Of a DNA stretch of 64,000 bases, positions 14,312 through 58,673 are shown piece after piece. How positions within the stretch are numbered: position 1 is the first letter of the stretch; every line of letters starts with the position of its first letter. The position numbers were made by a program, and so were the translations under genes. The notes below the pieces were generated by a model. It made no database searches. It saw only the letters and a program-made list of their open reading frames with translations, and was not told where the DNA came from. The stretch covers positions 1 to 64,000 of the forward strand of contig QIAU01000127.1 in assembly GCA_003225055.1 (NCBI GenBank), written 5' to 3'. The DNA is from Acidobacteriota bacterium (lineage in GTDB: Bacteria > Acidobacteriota > Terriglobia > Terriglobales > Acidobacteriaceae).

Positions 14312-15199
14312 ATGCACCGGCGTATTGCGGTCTCCCTCGCAATTGGGATAGCCAGCGGGCTGTTTTGCTGGTACTTGCTGCACAGGTTTCACCAGGACGC
14401 GGCCGATTTCCAATGGGCGATACGAGGGGCTCAACATCTGCTGGCACGCCGTAATCCTTACGATACCGCACTCCAACAATACCCGATGACGGCGGCTCTG
14501 TTTGGGCTGCCTTTTGTGAGGATGACGCCGGAGATCGCGGCCGGAATATTTTTCGGCATCAGTTCGGGGCTGCTGGCTTTCGGCTTGACAGGTTACGGCT
14601 ATAAGCGCCTATTTGTTTTTCTTGCTTATCCTTACTGGGGGTCGATGTTGACCGCGCAGTGGTCGCCGCTGATCACGGCAAGCGCTTTCTTTCCGCTGCT
14701 ATTGCCGGTGACACTGGCCAAACCACAAGTCGGCTTTCCGGTTGCGGCAACGCACCTGAGCCGCAAAGGGATTATCGCCTGCCTAGTCTGGCTGTTGCTC
14801 AGCCTGGTCCTGATGCCCAGCTGGCCGCTCGGCTGGTGGAAGCAGTTGGGAAATTATCAGCACTTCATTCCCCTGCTGGTGCTGCCCGGACCGCTGCTGG
14901 CACTGGCGCTGGTTCACTATCGCGAACGTGATGCCTGGCTGCTGTTGCTGGCCGCCATGGTGCCCGAGCGGTGGTTCTTTGATTCCCTGATCCTGTGGCT
15001 GATTCCCAAGTCGCGACGCGAATTACTCTTTACAGCGGCGCTGAGTTGGGGAGCAGGGATCTGGCGCTGGTATCACTATCCACAGAGCTTCAACCAGGTT
15101 GGACGCTGGACGGTAATTTTCATCTACTTGCCCATGCTTGTAGTGCTGCTGACGAGAAAGGTTGCCTATCGGGAAAAGAGCGTAGCCAACCCGTTTTGA
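14312..15199 (+). CDS. Polytopic membrane protein, DUF2029-like
   Basis: About 295 residues from the ATG at 14312 (MHRRIAVSLAIGIASGLFCW), chosen because it opens directly with a membrane helix. The first loop has DFQWAIRGAQHLLARRNPYD, the same GAxxLLxRxNPYD pattern as the GT87 family, and a mid-protein Lys-Pro-Gln (LAKPQVGFPVAATHLS). It is therefore probably a shorter GT87-like glycosyltransferase and a distant relative of the divergent neighbour. It converges on the next gene over 135 bp. Confidence 0.75.
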   Translation: MHRRIAVSLAIGIASGLFCWYLLHRFHQDAADFQWAIRGAQHLLARRNPYDTALQQYPMTAALFGLPFVRMTPEIAAGIFFGISSGLLAFGLTGYGYKRLFVFLAYPYWGSMLTAQWSPLITASAFFPLLLPVTLAKPQVGFPVAATHLSRKGIIACLVWLLLSLVLMPSWPLGWWKQLGNYQHFIPLLVLPGPLLALALVHYRERDAWLLLLAAMVPERWFFDSLILWLIPKSRRELLFTAALSWGAGIWRWYHYPQSFNQVGRWTVIFIYLPMLVVLLTRKVAYREKSVANPF

Positions 15200-15334
15200 T
15201 TTGATCGTTTTCCGTTCGCAGCCGCTCGACGCCCACGCCTCGTGCAAGACCCGCAGACGGGCAGATGGATGAGAGTTCAAGAGTATTGTGGAGTGCCCAC
15301 CACGGCTCCCGAGTACAGTGAATCGCGATGGGAG

Positions 15335-16528
15335 TCATGGCTGTTCCCTCAGTCTGTGAATTATCCTTTCTACTGGCACTGCCGCCATCAAAAGAAGCAG
15401 CGGCTCAATGGGATGGCGGTAGCTGGTCGCCCATGAAGTCTGGGTCACGTAAAACACCACCGGATAGATAAGGAACAGCACGGCAGTGAACGCAGCAAAG
15501 GGTTGTGGGGCTTGCCTGAATCCCCAAAGGGCTAATCCGATCAGAGTGAAGTACACGAACGGCCAGGGATGCAGCCAGAAATCCTCCAATCGTTTGGCTG
15601 CGCGCAGGAGAAAATCTTCCGGCGCCGAAACAATGTAGACCATGGCCTCGCGCTGCCGTGCTGCCATGAACCTCGCTTCGCCCCATTCTGTCAACTGGCG
15701 GCTTCGGTAAGGGGATTCACCTGTGAAGTAGTCGTAGATTCCCGACATGCCCGCATGATTCCCGATGTATAGCTCAAGCCCGAGATTGTCCCGCAGACAG
15801 GGATAGAAGGAGCCGAGCATGCGGTAGTTGCGAACGTACCAGGGAGCAAGCGTCAGGGCTGTCATCGCCAGCATGATCGCCACGAACCCTTTCCTTGGCA
15901 AAAGCCACAGAGCGCTTGCTGGAATGAGCAGGACCAGCATCGGATTCAAAAGCAAGGCAACTCCTACAGCTATGCCAAGGAGCATCCAATCTCGAGTCCG
16001 TGCTGACATATCCGGGATAAGCAAAAGCCAGCTGAGAACCGCAAGCGTCGAGAAACTGTAATGGCAAAGCGCAAGGTCGGTAAGCGCGGTGGGCGGCAAA
16101 ACAGCCCACATCCAGGCAGCAACGAGGGCTGCAGTCTGTGAGAAATATTTTAGCGCTACCCTATAAAGCAAGAGCGCGACAACCCCTCCGGTTACAGCAT
16201 TGGCGCCGACGATCACGCAGAGCGACATGCGCGAGAAGATGCCAAACAGCTTAAAGATCACGGCTAGGAACAAGGGATATAGAGGCGGTTGCTGGGCAGT
16301 CGGTGTCGGCAGATCAGTGTACGGTGATGCGAAACCCTCCCCACGCGCGATGTGAGCGGCAATATGACTGGGCTCGTTCTTGGTGAATGGCTGGTTCGGG
16401 TACGGATTCATCGGACCTAGCCAAACCGGGCCAATGAGTATGAGTCGAAAGGTAACGGCGACCAGAGCAATTGCAAGTGGATTGCGCAACCGACGCATAA
16501 CTCCCTCGACGGTTTGGGAGAAAACCAT
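15335..16528 (-). CDS. ArnT/PMT-like (GT39-type) membrane glycosyltransferase
   Basis: A 397-residue membrane protein with a GT-C layout. The first periplasmic loop carries NEPSHIAAHIARGEGF followed by PTAQQPPLYPLFLAVIFKLF, the Glu-and-PPLYP pattern of PMT-2/ArnT enzymes; LEDFWLHPWPF and repeated helices follow. A ribosome site (AAGGGGACAG) precedes the ATG. Expected to move a sugar from a polyprenyl phosphate to an acceptor on the outer face of the inner membrane. It is divergent from the Flp pilin gene (81 bp), which makes pilin or its export path a candidate acceptor (inference). Confidence 0.8.
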   Translation of the reverse strand: MVFSQTVEGVMRRLRNPLAIALVAVTFRLILIGPVWLGPMNPYPNQPFTKNEPSHIAAHIARGEGFASPYTDLPTPTAQQPPLYPLFLAVIFKLFGIFSRMSLCVIVGANAVTGGVVALLLYRVALKYFSQTAALVAAWMWAVLPPTALTDLALCHYSFSTLAVLSWLLLIPDMSARTRDWMLLGIAVGVALLLNPMLVLLIPASALWLLPRKGFVAIMLAMTALTLAPWYVRNYRMLGSFYPCLRDNLGLELYIGNHAGMSGIYDYFTGESPYRSRQLTEWGEARFMAARQREAMVYIVSAPEDFLLRAAKRLEDFWLHPWPFVYFTLIGLALWGFRQAPQPFAAFTAVLFLIYPVVFYVTQTSWATSYRHPIEPLLLLMAAVPVERIIHRLREQP

Positions 16529-51817: not shown

Positions 51818-54214
51818 CTACTTATAAATCAGATATTTCTCCCGGATCTTCATAAATTGCTGGAGCCGTTCCTGCCAGTCCTGCGCGATGCGGCGCGGGT
51901 CTTCGTCTCTGGCAATCGCATCGAAGACCGCCTGGTTGGCGAGGATCTCGATCATTCTCGCCATCTGCCACGGCTGCGGATAGAGCTTGTGCAGCGCCGA
52001 TGCCAGTTCCACGCCTAGTTCCGGCGCGTCCAGGACATTGCGGTTGAGAAGGACAATGTTCACCCCTTGGCATTTCTCGCCGGCAAAATTGCTCGACGAC
52101 GGCGTGAAGCTGATGGGGACAAAACGCACCCCGGCGATCTCCCGGGCATTAAGGTAGGTTGCCAGTTCCTTGCCTTTGATCCAGGGAGCGCCGAGCAGCT
52201 CGAAGGGCGTATCGGTTCCCCGCCCGACCGAAAGGTTCGTGCCCTCAACCAGAGCTACGCCAGGATACAGTGCTGCTTCGGTCGCGCTGCGCAGGTTGGG
52301 CGAAGGATTGATCCACACCAGGCCGGTGGAGTCGTACCAGTCGCCGCGCAGCCAGCCCTCCATAGTCTGAACCTGGAGCTGGGCATGGATGTCGCGCTCG
52401 GCGTTGAACAGGGTGGCCAGTTCGCCGAGCGTCATGCCGTGGCGCACCGGGACAGGATGGTAGTTGACGAAATTCTCGCGCCCAATATCTGATACCGGGC
52501 CCTGCACGAACGAACCCGTTACCGGATTGGGGCGATCCAGCACGATGACTTCGATCCCGGCCTTGGCCGCGGCTTCCAGAAAGTAGCCGACGGTCGTTTC
52601 GTAAGTGTAGCAGCGCGCCCCCGCATCCTGAATGTCAATGACCACGGCATCGAGCGTCTTCAAGATGTCGACGGAAGGGCGCCGCGCCGCATCGGTTGCG
52701 CCGTAGACGCTCAAAACCGGCACTCCCGTGGCCGCATCTTTGGAGTTGCCGACGTCGGTCGTGTCCAGAGCGCCCGTGACACCGTGCTCTGGGCTAAAGA
52801 TGGCTTCAAGCGAAACGCCCGGGGCTTGAGCGAGAACGTCGATGGTGCGGCGTCCTTGTGAATCGATGCCGGTTTGATTGGTCACGATGCCAATTTTCCT
52901 CTTTCCAGCCGGCGCGCGCAGAAGATCGAAATTGTGATCTTCGAGAACATCGATTCCGGTCTTGACCGAACCATTGCGGGCAGCGAGGCGGCGTCCACCG
53001 GCCATCGCTTCGTTGTAGCCGGTGATGCTCTCCCAGCGGAGCTTCTCTTTTTCGCTCGCCGTAAGTGGCAGGGCGGCAGCGATCGCCGTAGCCAGCTTGG
53101 TTCGCAACGCCACCGCCGTTCCCCGTCCGTGTGGGTGGACGGAGTTGGTCAGCAGGATGATGTAAGTCTTCGTGACCGGATCGATCCACAGAGACGTCCC
53201 GGTGAATCCAGTGTGACCGAAAGAGCCAACCGGCAAGAGGTCGCCGCGATTGGTGGAGAAAGGCGAATCGATGTCCCAGCCAAAGCCCCGCAGGGAAGTT
53301 GCGTTGGGTGGTTGCTGGGGAGTCGACATCTTCTCGACGGCGAGTGGGGAGAGCACTTTGCTGCCGCTGAGCAATGCCTGGGCGAACTTGGCCAGATCAT
53401 CCGCCGTCGAAAACAGGCCGGCGTGGCCGGCCACTCCGCCCATACGACGCGCACTCGGGTCGTGGACTACCGCGCGCAGCATCACGCCATCGTCGTCGTA
53501 TTGCGTGGGCGCGGTCTTGGAGCGCCATGAGGGAGGCGGCAGGTAGCGCGTGTGCGTCATCTTCAGCGGGGCGAAGATTTTGCTCTGGGTGTAGTTGTCG
53601 AGAGTCATCTTCGAGACTTCCTCGACCAGCGCACCCAGGGTGATGAAGTTAATATCGCTGTAGACAAATTGCGCGCCCGGCGGATCTTGCGGCTTCTCGG
53701 CCAAGGCCATGGCATAGGCGGTGGCCTTGCCTTGCCAGGCCGTCTTTAAGTCAAGGTCGGGCTCCAGACCCGAATAATGGGTCAACAATTCCCGCACCGT
53801 GATGTCTTCCTTGCCGTTCTGAGCGAATTCGGGCAGGTATTTCGCCACCGGATCGTTGGGCCGCACCTCACCCCGCTCGACCAGTTGCATCACGGCGGTG
53901 GTCGTGGCAACTACTTTGGTCAGTGAGGCCAGGTCAAAAATCGTGTCCACGGTCATGCGCTCGCGGCGCGGCTCGAGCGCCCGGTAACCGAATGCTTTGC
54001 GATAGACAACCCGACCCCGGTGCCCGACCAGCACGACGGCGCCCGGAATCTGGCCGCTGTCGATGGCCTGCTTGATGATGGTGTCAATGACGGCGAGGCG
54101 AGCATAGGAGCCCGCCTTGGCCGCTTTCGCAGCGGAAGTGGGTACGACCAACAGCGCCAGAACGAAGAGAGCTCGAATCGGGCGGGTGCAAAGACGATGG
54201 AGGACAGAATTCAC
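51818..54214 (-). CDS. Serine hydrolase fused to NamZ-type exo-N-acetylmuramidase
   Basis: A 798-residue exported protein with two catalytic units. After a signal peptide (IRALFVLALLVVPTSAAKA) residues about 40-395 are a class C beta-lactamase-like hydrolase (nucleophile in FDLASLTKVVATT, second motif VYSDINF, HTGFTGTSLWIDP). Residues about 410-798 are DUF1343/NamZ: IGIVTNQTGIDSQGRR, AIFSPEHGVTGALDT, VVIDIQDAGARCYTYETTVG and VIVLDRPNPVTG. Characterised NamZ releases MurNAc from peptidoglycan chain ends, so the pair could trim peptide and sugar together. It starts at GTG 54214, 77 bp before the left end of the IS. Confidence 0.92.
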   Translation of the reverse strand: MNSVLHRLCTRPIRALFVLALLVVPTSAAKAAKAGSYARLAVIDTIIKQAIDSGQIPGAVVLVGHRGRVVYRKAFGYRALEPRRERMTVDTIFDLASLTKVVATTTAVMQLVERGEVRPNDPVAKYLPEFAQNGKEDITVRELLTHYSGLEPDLDLKTAWQGKATAYAMALAEKPQDPPGAQFVYSDINFITLGALVEEVSKMTLDNYTQSKIFAPLKMTHTRYLPPPSWRSKTAPTQYDDDGVMLRAVVHDPSARRMGGVAGHAGLFSTADDLAKFAQALLSGSKVLSPLAVEKMSTPQQPPNATSLRGFGWDIDSPFSTNRGDLLPVGSFGHTGFTGTSLWIDPVTKTYIILLTNSVHPHGRGTAVALRTKLATAIAAALPLTASEKEKLRWESITGYNEAMAGGRRLAARNGSVKTGIDVLEDHNFDLLRAPAGKRKIGIVTNQTGIDSQGRRTIDVLAQAPGVSLEAIFSPEHGVTGALDTTDVGNSKDAATGVPVLSVYGATDAARRPSVDILKTLDAVVIDIQDAGARCYTYETTVGYFLEAAAKAGIEVIVLDRPNPVTGSFVQGPVSDIGRENFVNYHPVPVRHGMTLGELATLFNAERDIHAQLQVQTMEGWLRGDWYDSTGLVWINPSPNLRSATEAALYPGVALVEGTNLSVGRGTDTPFELLGAPWIKGKELATYLNAREIAGVRFVPISFTPSSSNFAGEKCQGVNIVLLNRNVLDAPELGVELASALHKLYPQPWQMARMIEILANQAVFDAIARDEDPRRIAQDWQERLQQFMKIREKYLIYK

Positions 54215-54287
54215 GTTCGTATTAGGTGACTGGAAGATGTTCTGACTTTACACAAGCAGAGCAGGATTTCTCAAGAAACTGAAGTGC

Positions 54288-54290
54288 TAA
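54288..54290. repeat. Left target-site copy (TAA)
   Basis: TAA abuts the left IS end and recurs at 56182-56184 just outside the right end, the expected 3-bp duplication. A 4-bp CTAA reading is possible if the right end is set one base shorter. Confidence 0.6.
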
Positions 54291-54315
54291 GGCCTCGCGC
54301 AACAATAACTCCGCA
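54291..54315 (+). repeat. IS left inverted repeat
   Basis: Begins GGCCTCGCGCAACAATAAC and matches the right end in inverse orientation at 18 of 25 positions. Confidence 0.75.
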
Positions 54316-54405
54316 TTCTGTGGTTAAACTATCCCAATACCCTAAATAGGATGCTGGCTCAAATAGGCGTTGGACGCCAGATTTACAGAAAAGAACAATT
54401 TAGCC

Positions 54406-54455
54406 GTGGTATAGTTCATCCTGTATACTGGTCCTTATAGGAGGAACTATACCAC
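54406..54455 (+). promoter_or_regulatory. Stem-loop covering the transposase start
   Basis: GTGGTATAGTTC (54406-54417) is perfectly complementary to GAACTATACCAC (54444-54455), which ends on the base before the ATG. The 26-nt loop holds most of the ribosome site (GGAGG, 54440-54444) and a -10-like TATACT (54424-54429). A transcript entering from outside would fold this stem and mask the start; one starting near 54436 would lack the 5' arm. Confidence 0.7.
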
Positions 54456-55208
54456 ATGGTTTTCACCTCAGAAAGCCTTCGCTCCTTCTTGCGACGCAAA
54501 CAAATCGCCACCTTGGAAGAATTAAAACAAGCGTTGGGCACGACCTCCACCATGACCGTGTTCCGCAAACTGAAGACCTTGAACTATCGCACCAGTTACT
54601 CCCACCGCGGCAAGTACTACACCCTGGCGGAGATCCCTCAGTTCGATGAACAAGGACTTTGGTCCTCTCGGGGGGTCTGGTTTTCTCGCGACGGGACTTT
54701 GTTGGCCACCGCACAACGCTTCGTGCAACAATCCCCCGCAGGATTTACGGCCAGCGAGTTGCAGGCCCTCTTGAGTGTGGAAGTCAAACAGACCTTGCTC
54801 CAGCTTTATCAGCACCATCGGGTGGACCGACGCGTGGTAGCAGATGTGTACGTCTACTTCTCTCCTGAGGCGGAGCGGAAACGGGAACAACGCTTGCGGC
54901 GGGAAGCTCGGCCAGCAGCCCAGGAGATTGAGGAACCGGCGGTGGAGGCCAAGCTGTCGCCGGAACTGAAAGCGGCGATCATTCTGTTTTACAGTTTGCT
55001 GGATGAGCGGCAGCGGCGTCTCTATGCAGGGTTGGAGGCCCACAAAGTAGGCTACGGCGGCGACCGGAAGATCGCAGAGTTTCTGGGATTGGACGTGCAC
55101 ACGGTGGCCCGTGGACGGCGGGAGTTGCTGGGAGGGGAGGTGCAACGGCAACGCGTGCGCCAAGCCGGGGGTGGGCGCAAAGCAGTAGAAAAAAAAAGCC
55201 CGCAGTGA
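54456..55208 (+). CDS. IS transposase, upstream frame (winged helix plus N-domain)
   Basis: 250 residues in the 0 frame. Residues 1 to about 150 form a winged-helix DNA-binding region (LRSFLRRKQIATLEELKQAL, MTVFRKLKTLNYRTSYSHRG KYYTL) that usually appears as a separate protein near transposases. From about 165 the ISAzo13 N-domain begins (LSPELKAAIILFYSLLDERQ RRLYAGLEA; FLGLDVHTVARGRRELLG). The frame ends just after nine A residues (55189-55197). Alone it could bind IS ends without catalysis, as IS inhibitors do. Confidence 0.8.
   Translation: MVFTSESLRSFLRRKQIATLEELKQALGTTSTMTVFRKLKTLNYRTSYSHRGKYYTLAEIPQFDEQGLWSSRGVWFSRDGTLLATAQRFVQQSPAGFTASELQALLSVEVKQTLLQLYQHHRVDRRVVADVYVYFSPEAERKREQRLRREARPAAQEIEEPAVEAKLSPELKAAIILFYSLLDERQRRLYAGLEAHKVGYGGDRKIAEFLGLDVHTVARGRRELLGGEVQRQRVRQAGGGRKAVEKKSPQ
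55189..55197 (+). promoter_or_regulatory. Minus-1 frameshift slippery site (A9)
   Basis: The 0 frame reads GAA AAA AAA AGC; slipping back one base gives AAA AAA AAG and enters the downstream frame (KKKPAVIKAIAHLL), which continues the transposase homology without a gap. The 0-frame stop (TGA, 55206-55208) follows 9 nt after the A run. Confidence 0.75.
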
Positions 55209-56161
55209 TCAAGGCCATTGCCCATCTGCTGCGCCACGAAACCGGCGGGGATCCCATGCGGGATCTGAAATGGTCCCGCCGCGCCATCCGAAAAATCGCG
55301 CGCCAACTGCATCGCCTGAAGATTCGGGTCAGCGCAAGTACCGTACGTCGCTTATTGAAACACATGGGATTCAGCTTGCGGGTGAATCACAAGCGGCTGG
55401 AATCGGGAAACAACAATCCGCCGCCGCGACGGGTACGCCACCGCCAATTTACCTATATCGATCGCCAGCGCAAGCGATTCACGGCGCGGGCCAACCCCAT
55501 TATCAGCGTCGATGCCAAGAAGAAGGAGTGGATCGGCAAGTTCAAGAACCCTGGGACCAGCTGGGAACAGCAACCCCAACTGGTCAACGATCACGACTTC
55601 CCCAGCGATGCCGTGGGCCGGGCGGTTCCCTATGGGGTTTACGATGCGAGGAAGAATCACGGTTTTGTAGTGGTGGGCACCAGCCGCGAAACCCCGGCGT
55701 TTGCGGTCGATGCCATTACCCTCTGGTGGAAGAGTTGTGGACACAAACGGTACCCCAAGGCCAAGGAACTGTTAATCCTGGCCGACGCGGGCGGTGGCAA
55801 CAGCGCTCGGGCCCGCGGCTGGAAATACCATTTACAACATCAACTGGTGAACCCCTACCGATTGCAGGTCACCGTCTGTCACTATCCTCCGGGAGCTTCG
55901 AAATGGAATCCCATCGAACATCGCCTGTTTTCGCAGATCAGCAACAATTGGGCGGGTCGCCCTCTCGAGAGCTACGAGACCGCACTCAAGTACATTCGCA
56001 CCACCAGCACCGCAACTGGACTCGCAGTGTGTGCTCGTATGCTGCCCAAGAAATATGAAAAAGGCGAATCGTTCTCCGCTCAGCAAATGCAGCAACTAAT
56101 GCTTTCCAAGCACACCACACTACCGGCGTGGAACTACACCTTGACTCCAGCAACTATGTGA
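55205..56161 (+). CDS. IS transposase, downstream frame (DDE catalytic domain)
   Basis: 318 residues in the -1 frame. It holds the Rhodopirellula/ISAzo13-type DDE domain: ISVDAKKKEWIGKFKNPGTS (first Asp), ELLILADAGGGNSARARGWK (second Asp) and CHYPPGASKWNPIEHRLFSQ (Glu). With the upstream frame joined at the A9 site the full transposase would be about 568 residues. A GTG at 55205 overlapping the upstream stop could also allow separate translation. Confidence 0.88.
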   Translation: MIKAIAHLLRHETGGDPMRDLKWSRRAIRKIARQLHRLKIRVSASTVRRLLKHMGFSLRVNHKRLESGNNNPPPRRVRHRQFTYIDRQRKRFTARANPIISVDAKKKEWIGKFKNPGTSWEQQPQLVNDHDFPSDAVGRAVPYGVYDARKNHGFVVVGTSRETPAFAVDAITLWWKSCGHKRYPKAKELLILADAGGGNSARARGWKYHLQHQLVNPYRLQVTVCHYPPGASKWNPIEHRLFSQISNNWAGRPLESYETALKYIRTTSTATGLAVCARMLPKKYEKGESFSAQQMQQLMLSKHTTLPAWNYTLTPATM

Positions 56162-56181
56162 AACTATTTTTGCGCAAGCCC
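56157..56181 (-). repeat. IS right inverted repeat
   Basis: Read inward it begins GGGCTTGCGCAAAAATAGT. It also encodes the last codons of the truncated membrane gene on the minus strand. Confidence 0.75.
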
Positions 56182-56547
56182 TAAGGGTGCCGTTTGTGCC
56201 CCAGATAGGTACAGGCCGGCCCCGATCAGCACACCCGCAGGCAAAGCCAGCACGCGGAACCAACAAGCCTGGGGTATCGATATAAAGAAAATTGCCATGG
56301 TCCCCGTCGTGAATACCAGGCCCATGGCTCTTTTAACCGGAATCTTGGCTATCTGGATCTCGGACATTTTTTCGTCGGGTTGCCGAGCAGGTGACGGCTT
56401 CGACGAGGGAAGAATTACAGCTACTACCACGCCGATCACGAGAGCGGGAAAAATGAACCAGGCCAGCACAGGCTCAGCGATGAACACGACGACCATCACC
56501 GCCAAGGTGACTGCGATACCGACTGGCCTCTCGACGAGTGCAGGCAC
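56164..56547 (-). CDS. Membrane protein truncated by the IS
   Basis: A 127-residue frame with four hydrophobic helices (VGIAVTLAVMVVVFIAEPVL AWFIFPALVIG; MGLVFTTGTMAIFFISIP; VLALPAGVLIGAGLYL). The last five residues (GLAQK) and the stop come from the IS right end. Removing the IS and one TAA copy, the frame runs on through 21 further codons from the left flank and stops at 54222-54224, 7 nt before the NamZ-fusion start. It was therefore probably the first gene of that operon. Function unknown. Confidence 0.6.
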   Translation of the reverse strand: MPALVERPVGIAVTLAVMVVVFIAEPVLAWFIFPALVIGVVVAVILPSSKPSPARQPDEKMSEIQIAKIPVKRAMGLVFTTGTMAIFFISIPQACWFRVLALPAGVLIGAGLYLSGAQTAPLGLAQK

Positions 56548-56674
56548 GACGAGATTCTAGTACACCGGGAACACCGGGATGCGCATCTTTACCCTCCCCT
56601 CCGGACTCTGCTAATGTTGGTCCTAGCCTTTAGCCGAGGTCCTTTGCCTTCTGAACAGCGTCCCAAAAACTTCC

Positions 56675-57769
56675 GTGCCGTTTCCGATTCCCGCCTTTGA
56701 GAAGCAGGACGCGGTTTTCCCGCGAGCTTTCGGCATCCTGCATGACGCCATAGCCGCACACGCGTTTCCCGGAGCGTCGGTGGCAGTCACCTTTAAAGGC
56801 AGGCTGGTCGCTCTGAAGGCGGTCGGGCGGTTTACCTATGACCCGCGCTCTCCAGAAATTACCGTTGACACCAGGTTCGATCTGGCATCGCTTTCCAAGG
56901 CGATTGCCACTACCAGCATGGCCATGGTTCTCTACCAGGGTGGCTTTCTTGACCTGGACATGCCGGTTGTGGCGGCCGTGCCCGAGTTCGGTACTGGCGA
57001 TGCGCGGCGGCGGGAAGTAACTGTCCGTATGTTGCTGGCCCACTCCTCGGGACTGCCCGCGTACGAGAAATTGTTCTTGCAAGCACGCACCCCAGACCAG
57101 CTTCTGAGCCGAGCGTTCTTGGTTCCGCTGGCCGCCGATCCCGGAACCGTCGCGGTATACAGCGACATTGGCTTCATCGTTCTTGGAGTGGTGCTGGCGC
57201 GGCTTGCCGATGAACGGCTGGATGAGTTTTGTTACCGACACCTGCCCGTGCTTGGCATGCCTGACACCCTCTTCAACCCTCCGGCGCGTTGCCGTGCTTC
57301 CATTCCTCCCACCGCCGACGATCGAACTTTTCGGAAGCGCATTATCCAGGGCGAAGTTCAGGACGAAAACGCCAGTGTTCTGGGAGGAGTAGCGGGACAT
57401 GCCGGGCTGTTTGGACCAGCGCGCGACCTCGCCCATTTTGCCCACACCATGCTTTTGGGGGGGCAGCCCCTGATTCTCCCCGAGACATTGTCCCTATTCA
57501 CTCGCCGTGAATCCACTCCCGACGGCACGTCTCGGGCGCTCGGTTGGGATACTGCTTCGCAACCATCCCAGTCGGGCAAGTATTTTTCACCGCGCTCTTT
57601 CGGGCATCTTGGGTACACCGGAACATCGCTGTGGATCGATCCCGAGCGGCAGTTTTCACTGACTCTGTTGACCAACCGCACCTGGCCGGACTCGAAGAAC
57701 CAAGCTATTAAGCAGGTGCGACCAAAATTTCATGATGCAATAGTGGAAGCGTTGCAGCATGAAAAGTAA
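56675..57769 (+). CDS. Beta-lactamase-like serine hydrolase
   Basis: A 364-residue class C/penicillin-binding-like hydrolase starting at a GTG. It has the SxxK nucleophile in TRFDLASLSKAIATTSMAMV, the second motif in VAVYSDIGFIVLG and the third region FGHLGYTGTSLWIDPERQFS. No signal peptide is visible, unlike the related N-terminal domain of the NamZ fusion (51818), suggesting cytoplasmic action or a missed start. It overlaps murQ by 11 bp, so it is probably an amidase/esterase working on recycled muropeptides (inference). Confidence 0.88.
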   Translation: MPFPIPAFEKQDAVFPRAFGILHDAIAAHAFPGASVAVTFKGRLVALKAVGRFTYDPRSPEITVDTRFDLASLSKAIATTSMAMVLYQGGFLDLDMPVVAAVPEFGTGDARRREVTVRMLLAHSSGLPAYEKLFLQARTPDQLLSRAFLVPLAADPGTVAVYSDIGFIVLGVVLARLADERLDEFCYRHLPVLGMPDTLFNPPARCRASIPPTADDRTFRKRIIQGEVQDENASVLGGVAGHAGLFGPARDLAHFAHTMLLGGQPLILPETLSLFTRRESTPDGTSRALGWDTASQPSQSGKYFSPRSFGHLGYTGTSLWIDPERQFSLTLLTNRTWPDSKNQAIKQVRPKFHDAIVEALQHEK

Positions 57770-58673
57770 CCTCATCCTTCGCAAACTAAGAACCGAACAG
57801 CCCAATCCCCTCTCGGCGGGGTTGGACTACAAGTCGTCGCTCGAAATTGCTCGCATCATGAATGCCGAAGATGCCAAGGTGGCAGCGGCGGTGAAGCGGG
57901 CTCTGCCGCAGATTGCGCGCGCGATCGACTGGATTGAAGATGCGCTCCACAGCGGCGGGCGACTGATCTATGTCGGCGCCGGGACCAGCGGGAGGATCGC
58001 AGCCCTTGACGCCGCCGAGTCCCCGCCTACCTTCGATACCGACCCGAGAACTGTTCAATTCGTGATCGCGGGCGGTACCAAGGCGCTGGCGGCAGCCACC
58101 GAGGTCAGCGAGGACTCGCCGGACTTGGGCCGTCAGCAGATCGCCAAGCGCAAGCCTGGCAAGAACGATGTGGTGGTCGGAATCGCCGCCAGTGGACGTA
58201 CTCCGTTCACGGTCGCGGCGATCCAGGAGGCTCGCCGCAAGGGCGCCAAGACGATTGCTGTCACCTGCAACCGGAATTCCCCGCTCGAAAAGGCCGCCCA
58301 CCTTGCGATCGTGACGCAGGTCGGGCCAGAGGTGCTGGCCGGCTCCTCCCGATTGAAGGCGGGTACGGCGCAGAAATTAGTGTTGAACATGCTTTCAACT
58401 GGGGCCATGACTCGACTGGGCTATGTCTACGGCAACCTGATGGTGAACCTGCGTCTGAAGAACGAAAAGTTGAGGGAGCGTGGCATCAGCATCGTGGAAC
58501 AGGCGGCCAGAGTGTCCCGCGAGGCGGCGCGCAAGGCACTACAGGCGGGGGGCAGCGTGGCTATCACCCTGGTGATGTTAAAGGCGGGCGTGAGCCGCGA
58601 TGTGGCGGCGCGGGCTTTGAGACTTTCTCGCGGGAATGTCCGAGAGGCCATCACCAGCGTTAAACGGGACTGA
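57759..58673 (+). CDS. murQ: N-acetylmuramic acid 6-phosphate etherase
   Basis: A 304-residue enzyme cleaving the D-lactyl ether of MurNAc-6P to GlcNAc-6P, the key step of cell-wall MurNAc recycling. The SIS fold has LIYVGAGTSGRIAALDAAES (sugar-phosphate loop and catalytic Glu region PPTF), GIAASGRTPFTVAAIQEARR, and ITLVMLKAGVSRDVAARALR in the C-terminal helical part. The length is normal. It overlaps the serine hydrolase by 11 bp and precedes murA by 110 bp. Confidence 0.95.
   Translation: MKSNLILRKLRTEQPNPLSAGLDYKSSLEIARIMNAEDAKVAAAVKRALPQIARAIDWIEDALHSGGRLIYVGAGTSGRIAALDAAESPPTFDTDPRTVQFVIAGGTKALAAATEVSEDSPDLGRQQIAKRKPGKNDVVVGIAASGRTPFTVAAIQEARRKGAKTIAVTCNRNSPLEKAAHLAIVTQVGPEVLAGSSRLKAGTAQKLVLNMLSTGAMTRLGYVYGNLMVNLRLKNEKLRERGISIVEQAARVSREAARKALQAGGSVAITLVMLKAGVSRDVAARALRLSRGNVREAITSVKRD

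Follow-up and report, generated by a model that had tools for sequence, protein, structure and literature searches.

An ISAzo13-family insertion sequence in the presumed promoter region of a NamZ fusion gene of an acidobacterium

Insertion sequences (ISs) of the ISAzo13 family usually generate a target duplication of 3 bp. The element described here resembles members of this family in its DDE transposase, which covers nearly the whole family profile, in its terminal inverted repeats and in a 3-bp duplication. It differs from them in a transposase split into two frames over an A9 run and in ∼180 N-terminal residues of the first frame that lie outside the profile. For another element, ISPpu9, PMC8450116 reports a 5′ untranslated region hiding the ribosome-binding site, comparable to a hairpin found in the present IS. 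Among the literature matches listed, titles and abstract openings contain nothing on the regulation of NamZ, the exo-N-acetylmuramidase whose gene adjoins the IS, in Acidobacteria.

The locus lies in 64,000 nt of contig QIAU01000127.1 of an Acidobacteriota bacterium (assembly GCA_003225055.1), the whole of which is called the window. A preliminary description, made from the sequence, proposed that the IS had split an operon and replaced the C-terminus of a membrane protein. The comparison with related genomes leads to another reading: most likely, the insertion is an ordinary one that hit a regulatory region, and the split operon and the replaced protein end are misreadings of it. The genes concerned and the IS are as follows.

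51818–54214, − strand: serine hydrolase (beta-lactamase fold)–NamZ fusion (PF00144, PF07075, PF20732), GTG start at 54214
54291–56181, + strand: ISAzo13-family insertion sequence, 1,891 bp, with imperfect terminal repeats
56164–56547, − strand: membrane ORF, at present 127 aa, with a two-helix module in duplicate and an end derived from the IS
56675–57769, + strand: second serine hydrolase (beta-lactamase fold, PF00144), divergent partner of the NamZ fusion
57759–58673, + strand: murQ, N-acetylmuramic acid 6-phosphate etherase (TIGR00274, above cut-off)

The insertion sequence and the site it entered

Six further features belong to the IS, its borders and the joined membrane frame.

54288–54290, strand not applicable: TAA target duplication, left copy (joined-flank analysis)
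56182–56184, strand not applicable: TAA target duplication, right copy (joined-flank analysis)
54406–54455, + strand: perfect 12-bp inverted repeat directly 5′ of the transposase ATG, covering the ribosome-binding site (from folding)
54456–55208, + strand: transposase ORF A, matching NF033519 profile positions 3–76 at its C-terminus
55205–56161, + strand: transposase ORF B (PF07592), matching NF033519 positions 78–387, in the −1 frame across the A9 run
54222–54224, − strand: TAA closing the joined membrane frame, 7 nt before the GTG at 54214

Family membership follows from ORF B, which scores 387.6 bits against NF033519 (cut-off 200); ORF A reaches 55.5 bits, by itself below that cut-off. The profile match is contiguous over both frames (3–76, then 78–387). 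These overlap at 55189–55208, where the A9 run occupies 55189–55197 and the −1 frame is open across it, which suggests programmed frameshifting or slippage. The inverted repeat at 54406–54455 folds with −30.1 kcal/mol (z −5.9), a value equalled by none of 200 shuffles, and looks like a protection against read-through expression of the transposase. By eye, its loop contains a −10-like TATACT.

At the ends, 14 of the 17 outermost bases are identical between the terminal inverted repeats, and TAA is duplicated at the borders. Independent support for the right end at 56181 comes from contig C115 of the same genome (locus L054, G000:C115), where a 452-bp right-end remnant with 95% identity (about 14929–15381) terminates at the identical last base. 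Besides this partial copy, the genome holds one full copy only. Of 300 family genomes searched (E ≤ 1e-50, two candidates scored per genome), the other 299 gave no match, and no same-species genome without the IS was found. The C115 remnant adjoins TTAGCAC, and the IS of the window adjoins the same seven bases at its opposite end and on the opposite strand. With two sites only, this perhaps reflects a target preference.

The site without the IS was compared with the region upstream of NamZ in 45 genomes, mostly those whose NamZ identity is highest, together with some more distant genomes. In 31 of the 45, the joined site aligns above all 100 dinucleotide shuffles made for each, and 26 of these 31 alignments span the junction with at least 10 nt on each side. 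The best (G015) has 62 identical columns of 75 and covers 23 nt to one side of the junction and 51 nt to the other; marginal ones are G029 (30 versus 29 for the shuffles), G005 (35 versus 33) and G255 (39 versus 34). No alignment above shuffles was obtained in the remaining 14. Because the upstream regions of relatives align across the joined site, the comparison supports insertion of the IS into contiguous, pre-existing sequence. Judged from these alignments, taking out the IS and one TAA restores the site with an uncertainty no larger than the small indels among relatives; the distance from CACCC to TTGAG is 13–16 nt in relatives (by eye) and 16 in the window.

The membrane ORF now ends in APL-GLAQK followed by TAG, and GLAQK and the TAG lie within the IS. 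When the flanks are joined without the IS and one TAA, a frame of 143 residues results, ending in APLALQFLEKSCSACVKSEHLPVT; it gains 21 codons from the left flank and stops at TAA (54224–54222), 7 nt before the GTG of the NamZ fusion. Both observations had been made in the preliminary description, the origin of the last five codons and the stop from the IS as well as the 21-codon continuation, and both are reproduced here. The weight placed on them is not confirmed. A close, open junction had been called hard to explain by chance; as far as openness alone is concerned, when the 63 nt of the left flank were base-shuffled 20,000 times, 36% of the shuffles had no stop in 21 codons, and the flank DNA is conserved, presumably as a promoter, as described below.

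The presumed promoter region of the NamZ fusion

The NamZ fusion is widespread among relatives, being found in 166 of 250 family genomes (E ≤ 1e-230), and 59 of 61 relatives have some match to one or both of its domains (E ≤ 1e-20), the window's own genome being included in both counts. Judged by title only, most of the named records that match it (80 loci) are assemblies of Acidobacteriota, and soil or sediment is the source of many. The neighbouring NamZ and murQ genes point to recycling of muramic acid. Transcribed away from the NamZ fusion, a second serine hydrolase gene is its upstream neighbour in 43 of the 45 relatives, and the two are no more than 360 nt apart in 36 of these 43. The exceptions are G006, with only 1.1 kb upstream on the contig, and G001, with another gene upstream and the second hydrolase on another contig. 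An enlarged gap of 0.6–3.8 kb between the hydrolases is seen in seven of the 43 (L051, L055, L177, L180, L182, L195 and L052), and that of G015 contains other genes, with a TetR-like frame noted by eye. The gap between the divergent hydrolases is perhaps a tolerated insertion site.

Four elements of this intergenic region can be placed in the window.

54245–54250, − strand: −10 hexamer TAAAGT (within TTGTGTAAAGTCA) of the presumed NamZ-fusion promoter, from the motif in relatives
54269–54274, − strand: −35 hexamer TTGAGA of the same presumed promoter, 18-nt spacer, from the motif in relatives
56184–56204, − strand: conserved upstream block (GGCACAAACGGCACCC and neighbours), cut off by the IS, from alignment
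56584–56613, + strand: what may remain of the second hydrolase's divergent promoter (CATCTTTACCC..CTCTGCTA), from relatives' alignments

Of the 34 loci whose NamZ identity is 68% or higher and whose upstream sequence is available, 26 have a core motif upstream of the NamZ start, TTGAG followed after 17–18 nt by a −10 in TGTGTAaAgT; the other eight lack it, as do all 17 loci below 68%. The pattern included alternatives fitted after an earlier look; without these, there are 25 loci and 25 hits. It was found nowhere else in the 549,648 strand-bases of 52 loci (the 34 closer and 17 distant ones plus L042, whose upstream region is cut by the contig), and its one exact match in the window's own 7.4-Mb genome is the present site. 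A promoter consensus scan alone was not significant (two sites versus 1.0 expected). Rfam models had no match between positions 50 and 60 kb of the window. The two conserved hexamers, separated by 17 or 18 nt among relatives while indels are found above the −35, have the layout of a sigma-70-type promoter; on this distribution we infer that the core is the NamZ promoter.

In an alignment of 30 relatives, in which TTGAG and GTGTA are conserved by construction, columns outside the pattern are also conserved, upstream of the −35 as CttaCtt.aGTTtC and around the −10 and beyond it as AGTCa.aa.ATcc. The window agrees with the consensus in 11 of 15 columns on the side of the right flank and in 33 of 38 on that of the left flank, the latter count including pattern-fixed columns. 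The frame of the window is kept and open in five of the 30 relatives with the core, and another frame is also open in five. Third codon positions are not freer, with a mean majority fraction of 0.75 against 0.67 at first and 0.74 at second positions, so that the 21 codons lack the conservation pattern of coding sequence. One of the five open-frame relatives, G010, keeps similar residues (QTAPPLLQFLELSRAACVNSKH). Collectively, the flank looks like the NamZ promoter region and not a protein end. The proposal of a replaced C-terminus thus divides: the present end of the ORF is indeed derived from the IS, and the 21 codons taken for the earlier protein end coincide with the presumed NamZ promoter.

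The block at 56184–56204, which doubles as the final membrane-ORF codons ahead of the IS, stays beside NamZ in five of the seven relatives whose second hydrolase is >500 nt off (present in G010, G015, G049, G124 and G200, absent in G005 and G027). The same-genus genome G001 has the core without the block. The IS starts 16 nt above the −35 and leaves the core promoter intact down to the start codon; the block now stands 1.9 kb from the NamZ promoter. With up to two mismatches, the block was found four times forward and twice in reverse in the own genome, against four and four for a reversed control, and therefore no regulon can be read from block hits. Inside the transposase gene, 55740–55756 repeats the 17 bases of the NamZ upstream block with one mismatch. 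This copy is probably due to chance, the reversed control being equally frequent genome-wide at up to two mismatches.

Towards the second hydrolase, the segment 56584–56613 aligns above all shuffles in six of 43 relatives, and 12 of 16 listed alignments end at 56613. With only six above shuffles, this side is the weaker one. Less strongly, these alignments support the persistence of both halves of an old divergent promoter region, with the membrane ORF between them.

The membrane ORF between the presumed promoters

The two halves of the membrane ORF match each other with 34% identity over 50 residues (E 3e-7). Relatives carry single-module stop-to-stop frames elsewhere (15 examined, all of 78–107 residues but for one of 158; best E 1.5e-7). 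The two-helix module in these relatives (L004–L018) often has a charged tail with RPLxL, and by eye the membrane ORF is without such a tail. Pfam and NCBIfam gave no match for the ORF. Its codon-usage score is weak (0.025 bits per codon), and the + strand over it is also a stop-free frame, with a score of −0.047.

Among 100 relative genomes, 13 match the ORF at E ≤ 0.01, including its own, and all the others are half-length. Among 398 family genomes, at E ≤ 1e-4, its own genome and three others match, two of these by halves and one over a longer stretch, and no full-length relative was found. The longer match (G418) covers residues 29–118 with two stops inside, and the stretch examined there has no NamZ match. 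In a search of genome contigs for an uninterrupted membrane ORF plus NamZ, 156 stretches fitted a pattern and none was confirmed, own-genome records possibly being excluded. Neither a membrane-ORF nor a transposase match was found upstream of NamZ in the stretches taken from the 45 relatives (tblastn, E ≤ 0.01), and the 17 loci with membrane-like matches have no NamZ-fusion or second-hydrolase match within roughly 3 kb each (E ≤ 1e-5). The split operon is not borne out by these comparisons. In relatives without the IS, a continuous gene before NamZ had been anticipated; the gene order of membrane gene and NamZ is found in 0 of 45, and the divergent second hydrolase takes that position in 43. 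Loss of the membrane frame in relatives had been named in advance as counting against the operon, and only the five of 30 mentioned above keep it open.

Where the ORF meets the promoter region is indicated by its second half. All seven second-half matches among the 100 relatives end at residues 113–115, and the promoter block begins at about 56204, which corresponds to residue 115. Past this border, the alignments of G098 (tblastn) and G418 reach residues 118–122. The body of the ORF scored above shuffles against one of 41 intergenic regions (31 versus 29), taken as chance. The ORF itself is probably an addition to the locus. Because the second-half matches end where the block begins, we infer that the membrane gene lost its own tail when it was placed between two promoters, before the arrival of the IS.

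Competing explanations and comparison with known systems

These comparisons make one history highly probable, namely insertion of the IS, with TAA duplication, into the conserved NamZ promoter region after a membrane gene had been placed between promoters. A small membrane gene made of two fused module copies would first have come to lie between the promoters of NamZ and of the second hydrolase and murQ. Its 3′ end would have been lost at that spot, so that its frame then ran by chance into the promoter block. The ISAzo13-family element would next have inserted 16 nt upstream of the NamZ −35, duplicating the 3-bp TAA and leaving the core motif intact beside NamZ and the conserved block beyond the IS. 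The block would act in cis on the NamZ promoter from about two helical turns above the −35, a possible activator position. If so, the IS would change the control of NamZ rather than split an operon, that control being altered if the block binds an activator. As the best-supported effect of the IS, 1.9 kb would now stand between the NamZ promoter and the conserved block upstream of it.

An ancestral operon of membrane gene and NamZ, with the 21 codons as true C-terminus and the IS as the cause of its splitting, is very improbable. The common orientation, the 7-nt gap and the open frame agree with it, as does the similar frame of G010. In that same genome, however, the block is present and no membrane-ORF match lies upstream; conserved hexamers lie inside the supposed codons, openness has the 36% chance given above, and neither the site in the 45 relatives nor the neighbourhood of the 17 membrane-like loci shows the expected genes. 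For the family, this operon is largely refuted by the arrangement in 0 of 45 relatives and a frame open in five of 30. A lineage-specific operon, in which the inserted membrane gene had come to be transcribed together with NamZ across the promoter region prior to the IS insertion, is quite unlikely. Orientation and the open joined ORF would allow it, and no terminator-like site on the − strand was called between the genes outside the IS; against it stand the conserved core motif that NamZ retains for itself, the same lack of the arrangement in all 45 relatives and the missing charged tail of the ORF.

It may also be asked whether the membrane ORF is a gene. If it were just a frame open by chance, in filler DNA separating the promoters, this would account for the lack of a family match, for the weak codon usage and for the lack of a full-length relative in the 398 family genomes; against it, the two halves match each other and also single-module frames in relatives, and this reading is doubtful. 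More room is left for an IS without effect on NamZ, or one that supplies replacement upstream sequence. The untouched stretch from −35 to start speaks for it, whereas many relatives conserve the block above the −35, and in five of the seven with a displaced divergent gene it remains next to NamZ; it is a serious possibility, though a change of NamZ control by separation from the block is preferred. Tentatively, then, the block GGCACAAACGGYACCCCCTTACTT may be a putative activator site for muramic-acid recycling in Terriglobales, and this genome a natural IS promoter mutant.

The case illustrates that an apparently cut gene with a lost C-terminus can arise from conserved promoter DNA that is open in frame. 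It marks a presumed conserved promoter and upstream element for the NamZ/murQ cell-wall recycling locus in Acidobacteriota, for which the IS-bearing genome would be a natural insertion mutant of the NamZ promoter region. A similar situation, an IS between divergently transcribed genes and beside a promoter, is described in PMC9208149; here, unlike there, the promoters have a membrane ORF between them as well, and any effect on expression is putative. With the NamZ exo-N-acetylmuramidase and the other genes of N-acetylmuramic acid recycling, the present locus shares the NamZ_N and NamZ_C domains, an adjoining murQ and a neighbouring serine hydrolase related to PBP4B, although below the model cut-off. 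It departs from them in the N-terminal beta-lactamase-fold domain fused to NamZ and in the divergent pair of genes with a conserved intervening region in these Acidobacteriota.
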